A stretch of DNA of 64,000 nt from Porphyra umbilicalis (taxonomy: Eukaryota > Rhodophyta > Bangiophyceae > Bangiales > Bangiaceae): assembly GCA_002049455.2 (NCBI GenBank), contig KV918822.1:62001-126000 (forward strand). The letters run 5' to 3'. Below, in pieces: positions 9,083-28,038 of this stretch. Within the stretch, counting starts at the first letter, position 1; the number at the start of each line of letters is the position of its first letter. The notes under the pieces are model-generated. The model ran no database searches and was not told the DNA's origin. It saw only the letters and a list, made by a program, of their open reading frames with translations. The translations under genes were made by a program, and so were the position numbers.

Positions 9083-9711
9083 TGGTGCGTGTCCCAAAAA
9101 CGAGACATGGCGGTTTTTTCTTTTTTTTCTCGGCCCACTGGCCTTCTGCAACGGTCCGATAATGTAATGTGATCCACTCGGTCCCAATGTGCTTCCAGAA
9201 CAGCCCCTGACAGTGTTATCAGAGGCGGCACATCCTGACGTGTCATGGGGGAAAGTGTCATTCATTGCAACTTCGACAGGTGACGATCACGCGGCCCAAT
9301 CGAATGCACAGATACTAGAGCAGGCATGTGCTGACAACTTGTGCGCGAAGAAAAGGGAACCACCTTACCAATAAAAACGTGAAAAAGACCCCCATGTAGC
9401 CCCCTGTGAGGAAAATACGATTTGGGACACCCCTCATCGAAGCTCCAGTTAGCACATGAGCTTTGGCGTTGCAAACCTTTAACCCCAAGAACCTGAAAAA
9501 GACTGGCTCCAAGATCGGGGCTATCTGAGAGGTCCACAGAACAGGGCCCACAGGCGGGTATGAAGGAGTTGTCAGCCAAGCACGCGTCGGGAGAGGCTCT
9601 TTCCATGGAGGCCAGTCGAGAATTTTCCCGTACCCCACGCCGCCTGCCCCCGTGCAGTGATGTGTCAGTCCTTCAGAAAACGCGCATGTCTCATTTTTGG
9701 GACACGCACCA
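9083..9711 (-). mobile_element. TA-flanked 629-bp inverted-repeat element (copy 4, outside rRNA)
   Basis: The element begins TGGTGCGTGTCCC and ends with the inverse complement GGGACACGCACCA, with terminal inverted repeats of about 27 bases. It is bordered by TA on each side (9081-9082 and 9712-9713), the target duplication typical of Tc1/mariner-like elements. It is nearly identical to the three copies in the 18S gene. No transposase motif is visible in its 629 bases, so it is best called a non-autonomous MITE. A 114-codon frame (9606-9262, minus) and a 61-codon frame on the opposite strand are open but have no recognised domain. Confidence 0.9.
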
Positions 9712-20030: not shown

Positions 20031-22539
20031 AATTTCTTACATCGATTCTCGTCTCAGTCCGAAGCCCTCCTGGGCCGTCCCAGGCATTCTTTTGGGTGCG
20101 TGTCGCGACGATTTGCGCGGTTTCATTTGGAATTGACGTGGAAGATCTGCTTACGGGGCCGCTCATGGTGTTTTTGCGGAAGGGTGCGCTTTTGCCACCT
20201 TTTGCGAGTTCACTACATGCTGCTCCTCAGAGATCTTTGGCCCCCACTGGCCCGTGAAGTCAGAATCGTCGGGAAAATACCATTCCAGGGCGGTCCTGCT
20301 CCTTTACGGAAGGAAGCTTCCGCGGCGATGTCCGCCGCGGAAGACGTTCTTCGTCGCAATCGACAGACGCGCCGGGATGCTATTCCTGTTGCGCTAAGCG
20401 TTTTCGGCGTGTCGGTGACCCATAGAAGCCAACGGCATATATTCTGCCTGAGGACTCTGAACCCGTCCCTCTCTCAAAGGTGTCGATTCCACTCCACGTT
20501 GGGGGAAGGTGTACGAAGAACGAGCCCAGAAGAGTTTAAGATGCGCAGACTACCCCTCACAAAACACGCTACGAGAACCCCTGTGATGTTCCGGCGGAGG
20601 CTAAAACGGATCAGATATGCAGGCCATTGCCTCAACTATTTGCCTTTTGCAGACGTGTGTCGTTGCTTGCCGATCGCTCTGACGCTCATGCGTCGTAGTG
20701 CAACCGGTGTATTCTGTTGCAAACGGTGATTCAGACTCCGGGGAAACATGGAAGTGCCTACGACCAACGGGAATTGTAGTTGAAGGCATGGATTGTTTAG
20801 ACCTGGTCAATCTCCATCGTATTCAAGTTCAATGCGAAACAGGAAACTAGTCCTCCGTGCCCCCCTGCAAATGGGGATCGTACAAACGGCGTTTGCTAGA
20901 GTTTCGCGATGGAGTTGACGAGGTCCTGCGTGACCGTCATATAAACTTGGCCCGCTCCGAATCGGGATCTCCCGCTTGGGGTTTTGTGTGACAATGTCGC
21001 ATTGTGCTGCGTTGACGTGACGGCCTGCTCCGTCCACTTCGCAGGGCAGTAATGGGATTCTTAAGTGGGTACATTATCCGAAGTCTCTTAAAACAACGCT
21101 TGAGATAACAGATCTGTTTGCCATCTCGTCTGTCGAACGACTCGTGAGTGCGGATGCGGCCTCGTTCTCGCGAACGTGTGGCACATCGGCTCACATCACA
21201 GTCAACCTGGTCCCACGTACCTGATAGCATCTCTATGCTCGTCCTGCTTTACTGCCATCGATGCATCGCATTGGCGCTAGTCGGTATGGATTTGACCCTC
21301 TACAGAGCTTTCCTGGGTTGTGCGACTGGTCATTGACTAGAATGAATAATCAATACACAAGTATGAGAATATGAAGGGCGTGTGACTAAAGGTCTATTCC
21401 ATGCATTTAGGCGCATGAGGAAAGAGTTTTCCCTGCTGTTCTAGACTTTTTTTAACCACGAGAACTAAACAGAACTGGTCTCCGTGGCATGGGTACTCAA
21501 GGGAAAAAAAATGGCACTCAAAGGATCTTGTAGCGCTGAGATGCACCTCGGTGTTTCTCTGTCCCTCCAGAATTGCGCCGTTTTCTTCGTCTCTGCCGAT
21601 CCGGAACTGGCTCTGACCAATTTCTGATGCAAGACACGGATTGATCCGATCTGGCATCCCATGGAAATGCACATTCTCTCGGCCTGCTACGAGCATCACC
21701 TGCCCCCCACCACCACCGCCCATGTTGACCAACGGCCACAAATGTCGTGCAGACTTCCCCGCAGCACCGATGACACGCATTTTGTTGCCTAGCCACGTCG
21801 ATTTACCGCCTGCAGCGTCATCAGAGGGCCTTTTATTCCAGAAAAAGGCGTTCAAGACAACGGTGGGATGCAAGGAAAAACGTCTATCTCTCAAGCCTAT
21901 GGTCGTAGCCGCCTGAAAGTGTGTCATAAAAAAGCTGATGAAGTAGGGTCCAGGATGCGTCCATGTGGAGCGCCAAGGCTCGTTTCATTGCCGAGTTCTG
22001 TGCGCACCAATATGAGTCGCGCTCATGCGCCTTAATGCGTGGAATCGACCTTTAGACGGGAGCGTCGGGACCTTGATGAAGAAACGTTTGGAGAGTCCTT
22101 CGGTGCTCGAGACAGTCGTGGAACCAGACGAAAAGTTTACAATGCTCTGCATGTGTTGGAGATAGGGCCTATAATTTGGCACCGACCAACCTGTACAGCT
22201 TTTGTGCGCTGGAAATCTGGCCCATTCCAGGATTGTTCTTGACACGGAGGAGCCTCTAAATTATACTTCTTCAAGGGCCTTCGTAACCTGTCTATGAGGA
22301 TTCCCTTTTGGGACTGCGGTAGCGTTCGCACATGGCGTGTGAGCGCTATCGCTAGTGCTTTGAAAAATATCTCGGAACGAAACGCCTGTCGGGGTACCGC
22401 AAGGTCCCCTTCAGTGGTGTGGATCTTTCCCGCGACTGGGTACGTGCCTCTCCGTGCCACTGGTCTGTCGGCCGAAAGGCACAGCTAGCACGTGAGGGGT
22501 GCGTTACGCAGAAGAGGGGAAGATAACACAATTTTTTTT
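20031..22539. other. Spacer upstream of the 18S copy; possible decayed coding remnant
   Basis: About 2.5 kb of near-balanced GC. On the minus strand three frames (22460-22137, 22245-21985, 21927-21394) follow each other and have amino-acid composition unlike random shadows, including an AGGKSTWLG stretch and a glycine run. They may be pieces of one decayed transposon-derived gene, but no family is recognised. No typical rRNA external spacer signal could be identified. Confidence 0.3.
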
Positions 22540-22669
22540 ATCCTGTTTGATCCTGCCAGTAGTCATATGCTTGTCTTAAAGACTAAGCCATGCATGTCTA
22601 AGTATAAACGCTTTTATACACGTGCACTGGGAATGGCTCATTAAACCAGTTATAGTTTCTTTGGACGTA

Positions 22670-23297
22670 TGGTGCGTGTCCCAAAAATGAGACATGCGCG
22701 TTTTCTGAAGGACTGACACATCACTGCACGGGGGCAGGCGGCGTGGGGTACGAGAAAATTCTCTACTGGCCTCCATGGAAAGAGCCTCTCCCGACGCGTG
22801 CTTGGCTGACAACTCCTTCATACCCGCCTGTGGGCTCTGTTCTGTGGACCTCTCAGATAGCCCCGATCTTGGAGCCAGTCTTTTTCAGGTTCTTGGGGTT
22901 ACAGGTTTGGAACGCCAAAGCTCATGTGCTAACTGGAGCTTCGATGAGGGGTGTCCCAAATCGTGTTTTCTTCACAGGGGGCTACATGGGGGTCTTTTTC
23001 ACGTTTTTATTGGTAAGGTCGTGCCCTTTTCTTCGTACACGAACTGTCAACACATGCCTGCTCTAGTATCCGTGCATTTGATTGGGGCGCGTGATCGTCA
23101 CCTGTCGAAGCTGCAATGAATGACACTTTCCCCCATGACACGTCAGGAGGTGCCGCCTCTGCTATCACTGTCTGGGGCCGTTCTGGAAGCACAGTGGGAC
23201 CGAGTGGGTCACATTACATTATCGGACCGTTGCAGAAGGCCAGTGGGCCGAGAAAAAAAGAAAAAACCGCGATGTCTCATTTTTGGGACACGCACCA
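22670..23297 (+). mobile_element. TA-flanked 628-bp element in 18S (copy 1)
   Basis: It is inserted between GGACG-TA and TA-CCTTACTAC, splitting the rRNA stretch that normally reads about GACGGTACCTTACTAC. TA is present on both sides (22668-22669, 23298-23299). Termini are TGGTGCGTGTCCC and GGGACACGCACCA. Removing the element plus one TA restores a normal rRNA junction exactly. It is in the opposite orientation to copy 2. A 114-codon frame (22775-23119) is open but unrecognised. Confidence 0.95.
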
Positions 23298-23631
23298 TAC
23301 CTTACTACTTTGAAAACCGTAGTAATTCTAGGGCTAATACATGCCTACACGCCCGACTCACGAAGGGTGGTATTTATTAGATAAAAAACCAACGCACTTC
23401 TGTGCTTTGTGATGAATCATAATAACTCTCGGATCGCACGGCCTAGAGCTGGCGACGGTTCATTCAAATTTTTGCCCTATCAACTTTCGATGGTAGAGTA
23501 GTGGTCTACCATGGTGTCGACGGGTGACGGGGAATTAGGGTTCGAATCCGGAGAGGGAGCCTGAGAAACGGCTACCACATCCAAGGAAGGCAGCAGGCGC
23601 GCAAATTACCCAATCCCAACACGGGGAGGTA

Positions 23632-24259
23632 TGGTGCGTGTCCCAAAAATGAGACATGGCGGTTTTTTCTTTTTTTTCTCGGCCCACTGGCCTTCTGCAA
23701 CGGTCCGATAATGTAATGTGACCCACTCGGTCCCACTGTGCTTCCAGAACAGCCCCTGACAGTGTTAGTAGAGGCGGCAGATCCTGACATGTCATGGGGG
23801 CAAGTGTCATTCATTGCAACTTCGACAGGTGACGATCACGCCGCCCAATCAAATGCACAGATACTAAAGCAGGCATGTCCTGACAATTTGTGCACGAAGA
23901 AAAGGGCACATCCTTACCAATAAAAACGTGAAAAAGACCCCCATGTAGCCCCCTGTGAGGAAAACACGATTTGGGACACCCTCATCGAAGCTCCACTTAG
24001 CACATGAGCTTTGGCGTTGCAAACCTTTAACCCCAAGAACCTGAAAAAGACTGGCTCCAAGATCGGGGCTATCTGAGAGGTCCACAGAACAGGGCCCACA
24101 GGCGGGTATGAAGGAGTTGTCAGCCAAGCACGCGTCGGGAGATGCTCTTTCCATGGAGGCCAGTCGAGAATTTTCTCGTACCCCACGCCGCCTGCCCCCG
24201 TGCAGTGATGTGTCAGTCCTTCAGAAAACGCGCATGTCTCATTTTTGGGACACGCACCA
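23632..24259 (-). mobile_element. TA-flanked 628-bp element in 18S (copy 2)
   Basis: It splits the conserved rRNA stretch GGGAGG-TA-GTGACAA, with TA at 23630-23631 and 24260-24261. Its length is identical to copies 1 and 3 but its orientation is opposite. A one-base deletion relative to the other copies (CACCCTCATCG for CACCCCTCATCG) breaks the 114-codon frame seen in them, which suggests that frame is not maintained. Confidence 0.95.
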
Positions 24260-24359
24260 TAGTGACAAAAAATAACAATAGGGGGCCTATTAGGTCCTCT
24301 AATTGGAATGAGAAGAACTTAAATCCCTTATCGAGGATCCATTGGAGGGCAAGTCTGGT

Positions 24360-25349
24360 GAACGCACGCGAGTTCCACATCTTTGCTGCTCACAGCCCTC
24401 AACAAAAAAAAAACCACGCCAGATGTCGTCGTCTCGGTCTCCGGCAGGACGGGCTGCTCACAATAAGAGCAACCGGCATGGGCTCAGCATCTGCGAAGCA
24501 GTTGAGGCGCTTGTGGAGGCATGTTTGCGAGTCATTGCAGCTAGAGCGGTACCAACTGTACGTCTTTCACGCACTGCGTGTCTCTTTCTTGAGAGACCCA
24601 GTGATGGACGATTCACACAGGGCCAGGTGAAATATTTTTACATTTACCAGGCCGTGGCTCGCCGCAAGTTCGGGCGCAGCGTCATGGCAACTGTGATGGC
24701 TTCTAAAGCTGGCACAGACCTCACAATATCCCACGTGTGTGGCAGCAGATTCTGCCTGAATGGTACACACATGGTTCTTGAGGCCAAGCAAGTGAATGAC
24801 AAACGTGTACATTGCCACGTGTTCCTAGCTTACGTTACGGACGCTTCGAAACGGCATGTTCTCGCTCAGGACCACTGTCCTCATTCACCCAAGTGCTACT
24901 CTGTCTGAGATGGGTGCTAACGGCAAAAGATGGGCAAATGAGCTCCCATCATACACTTCGAAATTGTCGGGAACGACGTCACGAAAGGCACGTTGCGTGT
25001 TTTTCGTGTAAGCTCTGGCTACCGCGGTCCGCCGAGAGGTGAGAACGAGCAATCGTTCAGGATGCAGCAGTGTGCGTTATGGTGCACGGTAGTAAAAACG
25101 CCAGGGTCGGGTTAATCCGCAGGGAAGCGCGAGCACGTGATGGGTGGAGGATCAGGACGCTATGACTTGTCTCGCATTTGTGACAATCCTGTATCACGTG
25201 AAGGCGAACCTTCAGAGACTGTAATGGAGTGGGCGAAAGCTTAAGGGACAGTCCAATTCACGGGGTAATCCGGTCCACAGGAATAGGGGGTGCAGATCGC
25301 CCCTGAGGACTGTGGAGGGTGACGTAACATGCGTCGCTCGGTAGAAATG
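24360..25349 (+). ncRNA. Group I intron at 18S position S516, with nested endonuclease gene
   Basis: The intron separates rRNA GGCAAGTCTGGT (ending 24359) from GCCAGCAGCCGCGG (from 25350). This is the well-known S516 site: the upstream exon ends in U and the intron's last base (25349) is G, as group I introns require. It is 990 bases long. It carries a homing endonuclease frame at 24423-24908. The stretch after the frame (about 24910-25349) is presumably the catalytic core; I did not fold it. S516 group I introns are described in bangialean red algae. This intron shows no internal disruption that I can see. Confidence 0.88.
24423..24908 (+). CDS. His-Cys box homing endonuclease (I-PpoI-like)
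   Basis: 161 codons from the ATG at 24423, on the same strand as the rRNA (the frame is open 81 bases further up). It contains SHVCGSRFC, NGTH, an Asn nine residues after that His, a Cys fifteen after it, and a final CPHSPKC. The spacings match the I-PpoI zinc sites and active site: catalytic His in S-H-x-C, C-x4-C-x4-H, Asn at +9, C at +15, and C-x-H-x3-C. All ligands and both catalytic residues are present, so the enzyme could be active. Such enzymes cut intronless rDNA alleles and drive intron homing. How it is expressed from an rRNA intron cannot be told from the sequence. Confidence 0.85.
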   Translation: MSSSRSPAGRAAHNKSNRHGLSICEAVEALVEACLRVIAARAVPTVRLSRTACLFLERPSDGRFTQGQVKYFYIYQAVARRKFGRSVMATVMASKAGTDLTISHVCGSRFCLNGTHMVLEAKQVNDKRVHCHVFLAYVTDASKRHVLAQDHCPHSPKCYSV

Positions 25350-25430
25350 GCCAGCAGCCGCGGTAATTCCAGCTCCAATAGCGTATATGAAAGTTGTTGC
25401 AGTTAAAACGCTCGTAGTCGGATTTCGAAG

Positions 25431-26159
25431 CACGCTCACGGGGCCGGTTTTTCCCTGGCCTTTAGGACAGGGTGCTCTCAAAGTGTAGTGATGCACACAT
25501 ATACTTAGATAATGGAACTTGATCTCCGTTTCAGAGGTGGCAGTCTGCATTCGTGTCCTCAGGGATCTGAGGGCGTGTCAGCGTTGGAAGGGTCGCGATG
25601 ACGCTAAAAAGCGAATAGAGTTACGTGGCTGAGAAGGACTCTCCTGCCACAAGGGCCACAGGGCCTGGACGGCGTCTGCCCCTCTGCCCCCCCCCACCGC
25701 CCCGAGTTGAGCGCGGCGACCGCGCGCAGCGACTTCTGGGGTTCGACGCGCCCCCGATGACCCGCGGGTGATCGTGCCTGCACGCCGTCTTCTGTTGCGG
25801 CGGCGCGTCGGCAGTTGCTGACGCCACCTAGCGGTGCGGTTGGATGCGCCCCATCGCGCGGCGATCAGTCCCACCCGCCTGCCCGTGCGCCGTGTCGGCC
25901 TCCCTGCCCGCCGTGCGCAGGTGCGCTGCGCGGCGGAGTGACGCCCCTCCTGTGGGCGTCGCGCGACGCCGGCGGGCCGCCGCCGCTGCGGAGGCGGCGG
26001 CGGCATCCCTTTCCCCGCCCCACATTCTCCCCGCCACGGCAGCGTGGCTGTACGTGCCCCCGTGCGCGCTCGCGGCTATGGAGCCGGCCGGCATGTCCGG
26101 TGTCGATGCGTCGCCGAGCGCGCCACCGCCCTGAAGGCCAGGGTATTGCACGCACGTGC
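25431..26159. other. Unexplained insertion or expansion in the 18S V4 region
   Basis: After CGCTCGTAGTCGGATTTCG (ending about 25427) the sequence leaves the 18S path and returns at about 26160-26240 (GTTTACTGTGAAGAAATCAGGGTGTTCGAAGCAGG). The normal V4 here is about 150-200 bases, so roughly 0.6 kb is extra. 25640-26110 is much richer in GC than the rRNA. 25466-25530 has a short patch resembling the later ATAATAGAATAGGACTTGATCTC motif, perhaps a decayed duplicate. No inverted-repeat ends or intron boundaries were found. Confidence 0.55.
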
Positions 26160-26854
26160 CTGGAATTGCTGTTTCTGTGAGGGTGTCTTCTTTTTCTGGG
26201 ACGCGTTGTGCGGGACTTGATTGTCTCTGCACATCTGCGGGCCGGACGTTTACTGTGAAGAAATCAGGGTGTTCGAAGCAGGCGTTTGCTATCAATACGC
26301 GAGCATAGAATTATAGAATAGGACTTGATCTCTATTTTGTTGGTTTCCGAAGAACAAGTAATGATTTATAGGGACAGTTGGGGGCATTCGTATTTCATTG
26401 TCAGATGTGAAATTCTTGGATTGATGGAAGACGAACAACTGCGAAAGCATCTGCCAAGGATATTTTCATTGATCAAGAACGAAAGTTAGGAGATCGAAGA
26501 CGATCAGATACCGTCGTAGTCTTAACCATAAACTATGCCGACTGGGGATTGGCGGGGGTTCAGTTGAATGATCCTGTCAGCACCCTGAGGGAAATCAAAG
26601 TCTTTGGGTTCTGGGGGGAGTATGGTCGCAACGCTGAAACTTAAGGGAATTGACGAAAGGGCACCACCAGGAGTGGAGCCTGCGGCATAATTTGACTCAA
26701 CACGGGACAACTTACCAGGTCCGGACAGAATAACGATTGACAGACTGAAAGCTCTTTCTTGATTTTTTGGTTGGTGGTGGTGCATGGCCGTTCTTAGTTG
26801 GTGGAGTGATTTATCTGGTTAGTTTCCATCAACGAACGAGACCTTACCCTGCTA

Positions 26855-27482
26855 TGGTGCGTGTCCCAAAAATGAGACATGCGCGTTTTCTGAAGGACTG
26901 ACACATCACTGCACGGGGGCAGGCGGCGTGGGGTACGAGAAAATTCTCGACTGGCCTCCATGGAAAGAGCATCTCCCGACGCGTGCTTGGCTGACAACTC
27001 CTTAATACCCGCCTGTGGGCCCTGTTTTGTGGACCTCTCAGATAGCCCCGATCTTGGAGCCAGTCTTTTTCAGGTTCTTGGGGTTACAGGTTTGGAACGC
27101 CAAAGCTCATGTGCTAAGTGGAGCTTCGATGAGGGGTGTCCCAAATCGTGTTTTCTTCACAGGGGGCTACATGGGGGTCTTTTTCACGTTTTTATTGGTA
27201 AGGTGGTTCCCTTTTCTTCGTACACGAACTGTCAACACATGCCTGCTCTAGTATCCGTGCATTTGATTGGGGCGCGTGATCGTCACCTGTCGAAGTTGCA
27301 ATGAATGACACTTTCCCCCATGACACGTCAGGAGGTGCCGCCTCTGCTATCACTGTCAGGGGCCGTTCTGGAAGCACAGTGGGACCGAGTGGGTCACATT
27401 ACATTATCGGACCGTTGCAGAAGGCCAGTGGGCCGAGAAAAAAAGAAAAAACCGCGATGTCTCATTTTTGGGACACGCACCA
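26855..27482 (+). mobile_element. TA-flanked 628-bp element in 18S (copy 3)
   Basis: It splits the rRNA segment after CGAACGAGACCTTACCCTGC-TA and before TA-AATAGGTG, with TA at 26853-26854 and 27483-27484. Same length and orientation as copy 1, with only scattered single-base differences. Joining the flanks through one TA gives the expected 18S order. Confidence 0.95.
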
Positions 27483-27769
27483 TAAATAGGTGTACGCATG
27501 CTCGTACTGCGTGGCTACCTTCTTAGAGGGACCATACGCGTCTAGCGTATGGAAGTTTGAGGCAATACTGTAGCAGGTCTGTGATGCCCTTAGATGTTCT
27601 GGGCCGCACGCGCGCTACACTGATACATTCAACGAGTTTCACTTTTATGTCCTTGGTCGGAAGGCCCGGGTAATCTTGTGAAAGTGCATCGTGCTGGGGA
27701 TAGATCATTGCAATTTTTGATCTTCAACGAGGAATTCCTTGTAGGCGCAGGTCATCAGCCTGCGCCGAA

Positions 27770-27819
<50 letters not shown>

Positions 27820-27860
27820 ATCCGATGAAATGTTCGGATTGTGGCGTGCGTGATGTGCTA

Positions 27861-28038
27861 CGTGCACGGCAGGGGCAGGTGGCGGCAGATGCCCGTGGTA
27901 TGTCGTAGACGCGCTGGTACTGGACGGAACAAGGGAACAAAATAAACAGAACAACACGACCACAAACGACACAGACGGCGCTCCTGGACCAAAAAGAAAC
28001 AAGCTCTGGGGCGTCATGGCCGCACCACGCCCCCCCTC
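27861..28038. other. Junction between 18S remnant and BCS1-like gene
   Basis: About 180 bases between the last recognisable 18S sequence and the stop codon of the minus-strand ATPase. It includes an AATAAA at 27940-27945 that is on the wrong strand for the ATPase. No ITS or 5.8S sequence was seen. Confidence 0.5.

Follow-up and report, generated by a model that had tools for sequence, protein, structure and literature searches.

What could bring three elements of identical length into a single 18S rRNA gene? The question is raised by the window analysed here, a stretch of 64,000 nucleotides (C62:62001-126000) from a genome of 83.8 Mb assembled in 665 contigs, and the answers to be weighed are a transposon family drawn to rDNA, an error of assembly, DNA that is precisely removed, and the accumulation of mobile DNA in a dead gene copy. 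The last of these is, in our judgement, the best explanation: with a probability of about 0.85, a TA-duplicating MITE-like family, probably mobilised in trans by a transposase of Tc1/mariner type, entered an rDNA pseudogene in three separate insertions.

Three Copies of One Element in an 18S Gene

A sequence-only reading of the window had placed three elements of 628 bases in the gene, two in one orientation and one in the other, and this description is borne out. Copy 1 lies at 22670..23297 (+), copy 2 at 23632..24259 (-) and copy 3 at 26855..27482 (+), each 628 bp long, with copies 1 and 3 sharing an orientation and copy 2 reversed. Relative to copy 1, identity is 95.2% for copy 2 and 98.4% for copy 3 (10 mismatches in 628). 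The terminal inverted repeats, put at 27 bases for all three, have that length in copy 2 and are perfect over 26 bp in copies 1 and 3, the TA being excluded; in the 18S copies an imperfect extension carries the repeat to approximately 37 bp. A fourth member of the family is found outside the rRNA match at 9083..9711 (-). It is 629 bp long with a TA on each side, and its perfect inverted repeat measures 18 bp.

The comparison with related 18S sequences on two other contigs, C336 and C207, bears on the origin of these interruptions. Closing the window at site 1 (ACGTACCTTACTACTT) and at site 2 (ACACGGGGAGGTAGTGACAAAAAATAACAAT) gives sequences identical to the C336 copy, which is uninterrupted at both sites at equal length and has no coverage of site 3. 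In C207, sites 1, 2 and 3 are all uninterrupted, and their length equals that of the closed window sites. Since diverged paralogues are thus uninterrupted at equal length, the elements are insertions. Both C336 and C207 have a single TA at each of the first two sites, and in the window it is doubled around the element, whereas C207 reads TC at site 3. At this last site the duplication is deduced from the equal length in C207 and from the TA that flanks the element on both sides. The window observation, three element insertions in an 18S sequence, is confirmed.

The Host Sequence and Its Paralogues

The interrupted 18S (22540..27956, +) matches the Rfam model SSU_rRNA_eukarya with 1083.9 bits. 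Compared with C336 over 449 positions it shows 16 differences (3.6% divergence), seven of which fall in the upper-case, that is highly conserved, columns of Rfam. Within the window no Rfam match to 5.8S or 28S was obtained at the gathering score. These substitutions at conserved columns, the lack of a 5.8S or 28S match and the presence of further repeats, elements B and C, make the window 18S look like a pseudogene. C207 differs from C336 at 34 of 450 positions, also with seven in upper-case columns. Each of C336 and C207 has its own substitutions, and so they represent paralogues rather than excised versions of the window locus.

Five rDNA-like loci were found by DNA search, namely C62 (the window), C207, C336, C174 and C4, a count that rests on DNA queries and one 18S pattern. 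A 27-base 18S stretch, searched in the whole assembly with up to two mismatches, occurs only in C207 (no mismatches) and in the window (one), and therefore a complete intact 18S is apparently absent from the assembly. C336 comprises an uninterrupted 5' part of the gene, which matches the Rfam consensus in 179 of the 183 upper-case columns. This most intact of the 18S fragments seen (L046) halts at an N beside repeated sequence, possibly the edge of a working rDNA array.

Other insertions have accumulated in the same region. Element B, a second repeat of about 715 bp (25451..26167, +), occupies the V4 region of the 18S and is interspersed, with similar sequence in L021, L022, L026 and L032; it is absent from C207, and no consistent target duplication could be read for it. 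A third repeat, element C (21386..22055, +), has inverted ends of about 34 bp and lies in the 5' spacer upstream of the 18S. Sequence similar to it occurs in L030 and L032, and it is absent from the matching place in C207, which holds partial similar sequence elsewhere. Finally, an intron-like insertion (24361..25349, +), at a site that we take to be S516 in the usual numbering, is common to the window and C207. In the window it includes a His-Cys homing-endonuclease zinc-binding region (24423..24908, +; PF05551, E 4.8e-15; residues 93-186 of the frame 24342-24908), and the C207 version is without approximately 466 bp spanning this region. No Rfam match to a group I ribozyme core was found in the insertion, even at E 10.

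A MITE-Like Family across the Genome

The sequence-only reading had proposed a search of the whole genome for the element terminus, with all insertion sites mapped. The search, run with a 29-base pattern, gave 346 exact matches genome-wide, against none for the same pattern read backwards, while a 31-base pattern of the right end gave 126. The mapping of sites covers a narrower set. A search with copy 1 returned 441 candidates, 40 of them scored, and 20 loci were sampled from the best-scored matches with 4 kb per side; together with the window and C207 they provide 30 full-length copies, of which seven (window and C207) were chosen because of rDNA. All 30 are flanked by TA on both sides and diverge from the majority sequence by a median of 1.4%, and some family copies are located within others. 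The longest ATG frame in copy 1 encodes 114 amino acids (frames being compared by length), as against 386 and 422 for two DDE_3 proteins of the same genome. Short, with inverted ends, a fixed TA duplication, many similar copies and no frame of transposase length in copy 1, the family is a non-autonomous, MITE-like, TA-duplicating DNA transposon. Inside the 628-bp element, one TA (TTTTTATTGGTA) is bordered by family copies and another element in L023, L033, L035 and L045. Because several insertions border this one TA, the element seems itself to be a repeated insertion target.

The branching of the copies provides additional clues on their sources. Divergence from the majority sequence amounts to 1.6% for copy 1 and 1.9% for copy 3, both of which fall in the tree with the copies of L017-L020; for copy 2, which groups with the copy at 9083, it is 4.5%. 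At least two sources are therefore involved, since copy 2 branches apart from the other two. In C207, the family copy at the 5.8S edge is 6.9% diverged and the 18S differs by 7.6% from C336. Such divergences would be compatible with insertion during the life of the pseudogene, but they give no dating, because copy 2 has diverged more than the pseudogene itself.

Judged by its TA duplication, the family probably belongs to the Tc1/mariner superfamily, and sequences with the DDE_3 domain of that superfamily are abundant in the genome (359 candidates, 150 scored). No autonomous relative sharing the family ends and encoding a DDE transposase was found in eight DDE_3 loci (L037-L044), C41 or C28. 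The exact family end seen in L042 is part of a neighbouring MITE copy, and C28 is a family copy with an unrelated nested element. In C41 (L045, from approximately 405), a stretch that contains a DDE_3 transposase frame starts inside a truncated family copy. Its starting point is the internal TA at which nested copies are inserted as well, and its end there resembles that of the family (TGGCGCTTCCCC); a right end for this stretch was sought and not found.

Target Choice: AT-Rich TA or rDNA

The insertion preference of the family is for TA in AT-rich stretches, and the 18S is such a stretch. Around the TAs where the 20 centre copies inserted, local GC has a median of 0.50, compared with 0.645 for 708 background TAs drawn from this one window, minus the rDNA region and the fourth copy (Mann-Whitney p 1.4e-9). 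In the flanks of the 20 copies GC is 0.50 over the first 50 bp and climbs to 0.66 at a distance of 2-4 kb. TA density is 44-100 per kb in the four pieces of the window 18S, which together hold 98 TAs over 1694 bp, while the window as a whole has 15.9 per kb. Even so, composition alone does not explain the three insertions seen, since only 0.10-0.18 would be expected in the window 18S with GC weighting (0.03-0.06 without), figures that assume 350-600 family copies and a background of one window. The probability of at least three is 2e-4 to 8e-4, GC-weighted and with clustering ignored.

This excess over composition is among the arguments for a real but weak preference of the family for rDNA-like sequence, in the manner of Pokey and the 28S. 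Phrased more broadly, the family would have a genuine bias to rDNA-derived sequence (18S and the ITS/5.8S edge), exerted on relic and possibly on working rDNA. If true, another DNA transposon with an rDNA habit would stand beside Pokey, with TA instead of TTAA; we consider both formulations unlikely. In their favor, 5 of the 30 full-length copies are in sequence derived from rDNA (the three insertions of the window 18S, a copy in the 18S of C4 and, in C207, a copy at the ITS1/5.8S edge), and a family copy occurs in or near four of the five rDNA-like loci (C62, C207, C4 and C174). The insertions of the window and of C4 include two that lie approximately 5 bp apart in homologous 18S sequence. 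Moreover, among the loci examined in sequence, 5-kb stretches with three long copies that are not nested occur only in C62, C207 and C4, all rDNA relics; in L028, which lacks rDNA, one full copy is accompanied by two pieces.

Seven of the 30 copies, however, had been selected for rDNA; of the remaining 23, one is in rDNA. The test of the 20 sampled loci for rDNA relied on similarity to the window 18S and its 5' spacer, and on Rfam for 16 of them (L017-L032 of L017-L036). An 18S-like sequence within 4 kb was found by blastn in one of the 20 (L031), and Rfam at gathering level gave no match in L017-L032, the short 18S fragment of L031 included. The suggestion that the family targets rDNA-like sequence thus finds no support as the main rule, the visible preference being for AT-rich TA. 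The four 18S insertions of the window and C4 also use four different TAs, and the 30 sites, which are partly non-independent, show no strong motif beyond TA, the most extreme column being G at -3 (0.08). At homologous sites the element may be missing: C336 shows no interruption at either site 1 or site 2 and no family copy in the 1.3 kb fetched, and C174 is uninterrupted at the place where an 18S fragment of its relative C4 holds a copy, the closed C4 being one base shorter than C174. The family copy of C174 begins approximately 180 bp past its 18S stretch and appears to be shared with C4 by descent. Finally, other repeat families entered the same dead copy.

As to clustering, exact termini on C1-C52 among the matches listed imply at least two copies within 5 kb in 13 of 77 groups and at least three in 3 of 77; the input was 100 of the 346 29-base termini and 43 of 100 listed right-end places, with nested and partial copies included. 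We conclude that most of the pattern can be put down to the preference for TA in AT-rich DNA, to clustering in general and to a dead gene being tolerated; such clustering may also account for the excess over composition in the 18S.

Insertion, Misassembly or Excision

The favored explanation, separate insertions of a MITE-like family into an rDNA pseudogene, would then operate as follows. A Tc1/mariner-type transposase probably acts in trans on the 628-bp family, and three separate insertions, each duplicating a TA, would have reached the pseudogene. They would be tolerated there because the copy is out of use. Dense in TA, and poor in GC within a GC-rich genome, it would offer a good target, and local clustering of the family would raise the count. 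The sequence-only reading had also offered a dead rRNA copy as a sink for such elements, and it is this proposal that is supported by the substitutions at conserved positions and by the other repeats inserted.

Since rDNA is often misassembled, unrelated element-bearing reads might have been joined to rDNA in the assembly, and the C336 18S does end at an N. Against such an artefact, which we hold to be very improbable, stand the TA-exact junctions, the homologous uninterrupted paralogues and the mutual differences among the three copies. The weakest alternative, also raised from the sequence alone, is that TA-bounded DNA is precisely removed from DNA or RNA in the manner of ciliates, leaving a functional rRNA gene; the exact TA boundaries and the 18S sequence restored by closing agree with it, but it finds no support and is most improbable, given that the element-free copies are other, diverged loci, that the host gene has conserved-column substitutions and other insertions, and that the termini (TATGGTGC) are unlike the end consensus of ciliates.

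The locus thus looks like a dead and AT-rich gene copy in which mobile DNA has accumulated in the ordinary way, and not like a targeting or excision system. What it offers is a dead rDNA copy seen filling with mobile DNA, and, for one MITE family, both filled and uninterrupted sites are now available.

Comparison with Known Systems

The internal eliminated sequences of ciliates are TA-bounded and mostly unique segments. The window elements share the TA boundaries; in contrast, they belong to a multicopy family, their uninterrupted counterparts are diverged paralogues and they carry no sign of excision.

In two reports, Pokey and mPok of Daphnia are described as a piggyBac DNA transposon family with MITEs, present in rRNA genes and elsewhere, mostly duplicating TTAA and using a single 28S site except for one mPok copy in ITS2 (PMC3849761, PMC3315735). 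Of the DNA transposons that have MITEs and occur in rRNA genes, Pokey is the closest known parallel. Both are DNA transposon families with MITEs inside rRNA genes and elsewhere; the window family, however, duplicates TA and occupies different 18S sites in relic copies. The site specificity of Pokey has no parallel here, with three different sites in the window and so few of the sampled loci near 18S-like sequence.

The accessible parts of the literature on MITEs, mariner elements and transposons in rDNA or rDNA pseudogenes yielded nothing pointing to the 628-bp family. Among MITEs of Tc1/mariner type, Stowaway-like and similar families duplicate TA. The window family resembles these in its short length, inverted ends, TA duplication and hundreds of similar copies, in a genome where DDE_3 is abundant. 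It departs from Stowaway in its end sequence (TGGTGCGTGTCCC) and from Tc1/mariner-type MITEs at large in that the loci examined yielded no transposase-bearing element with matching ends.
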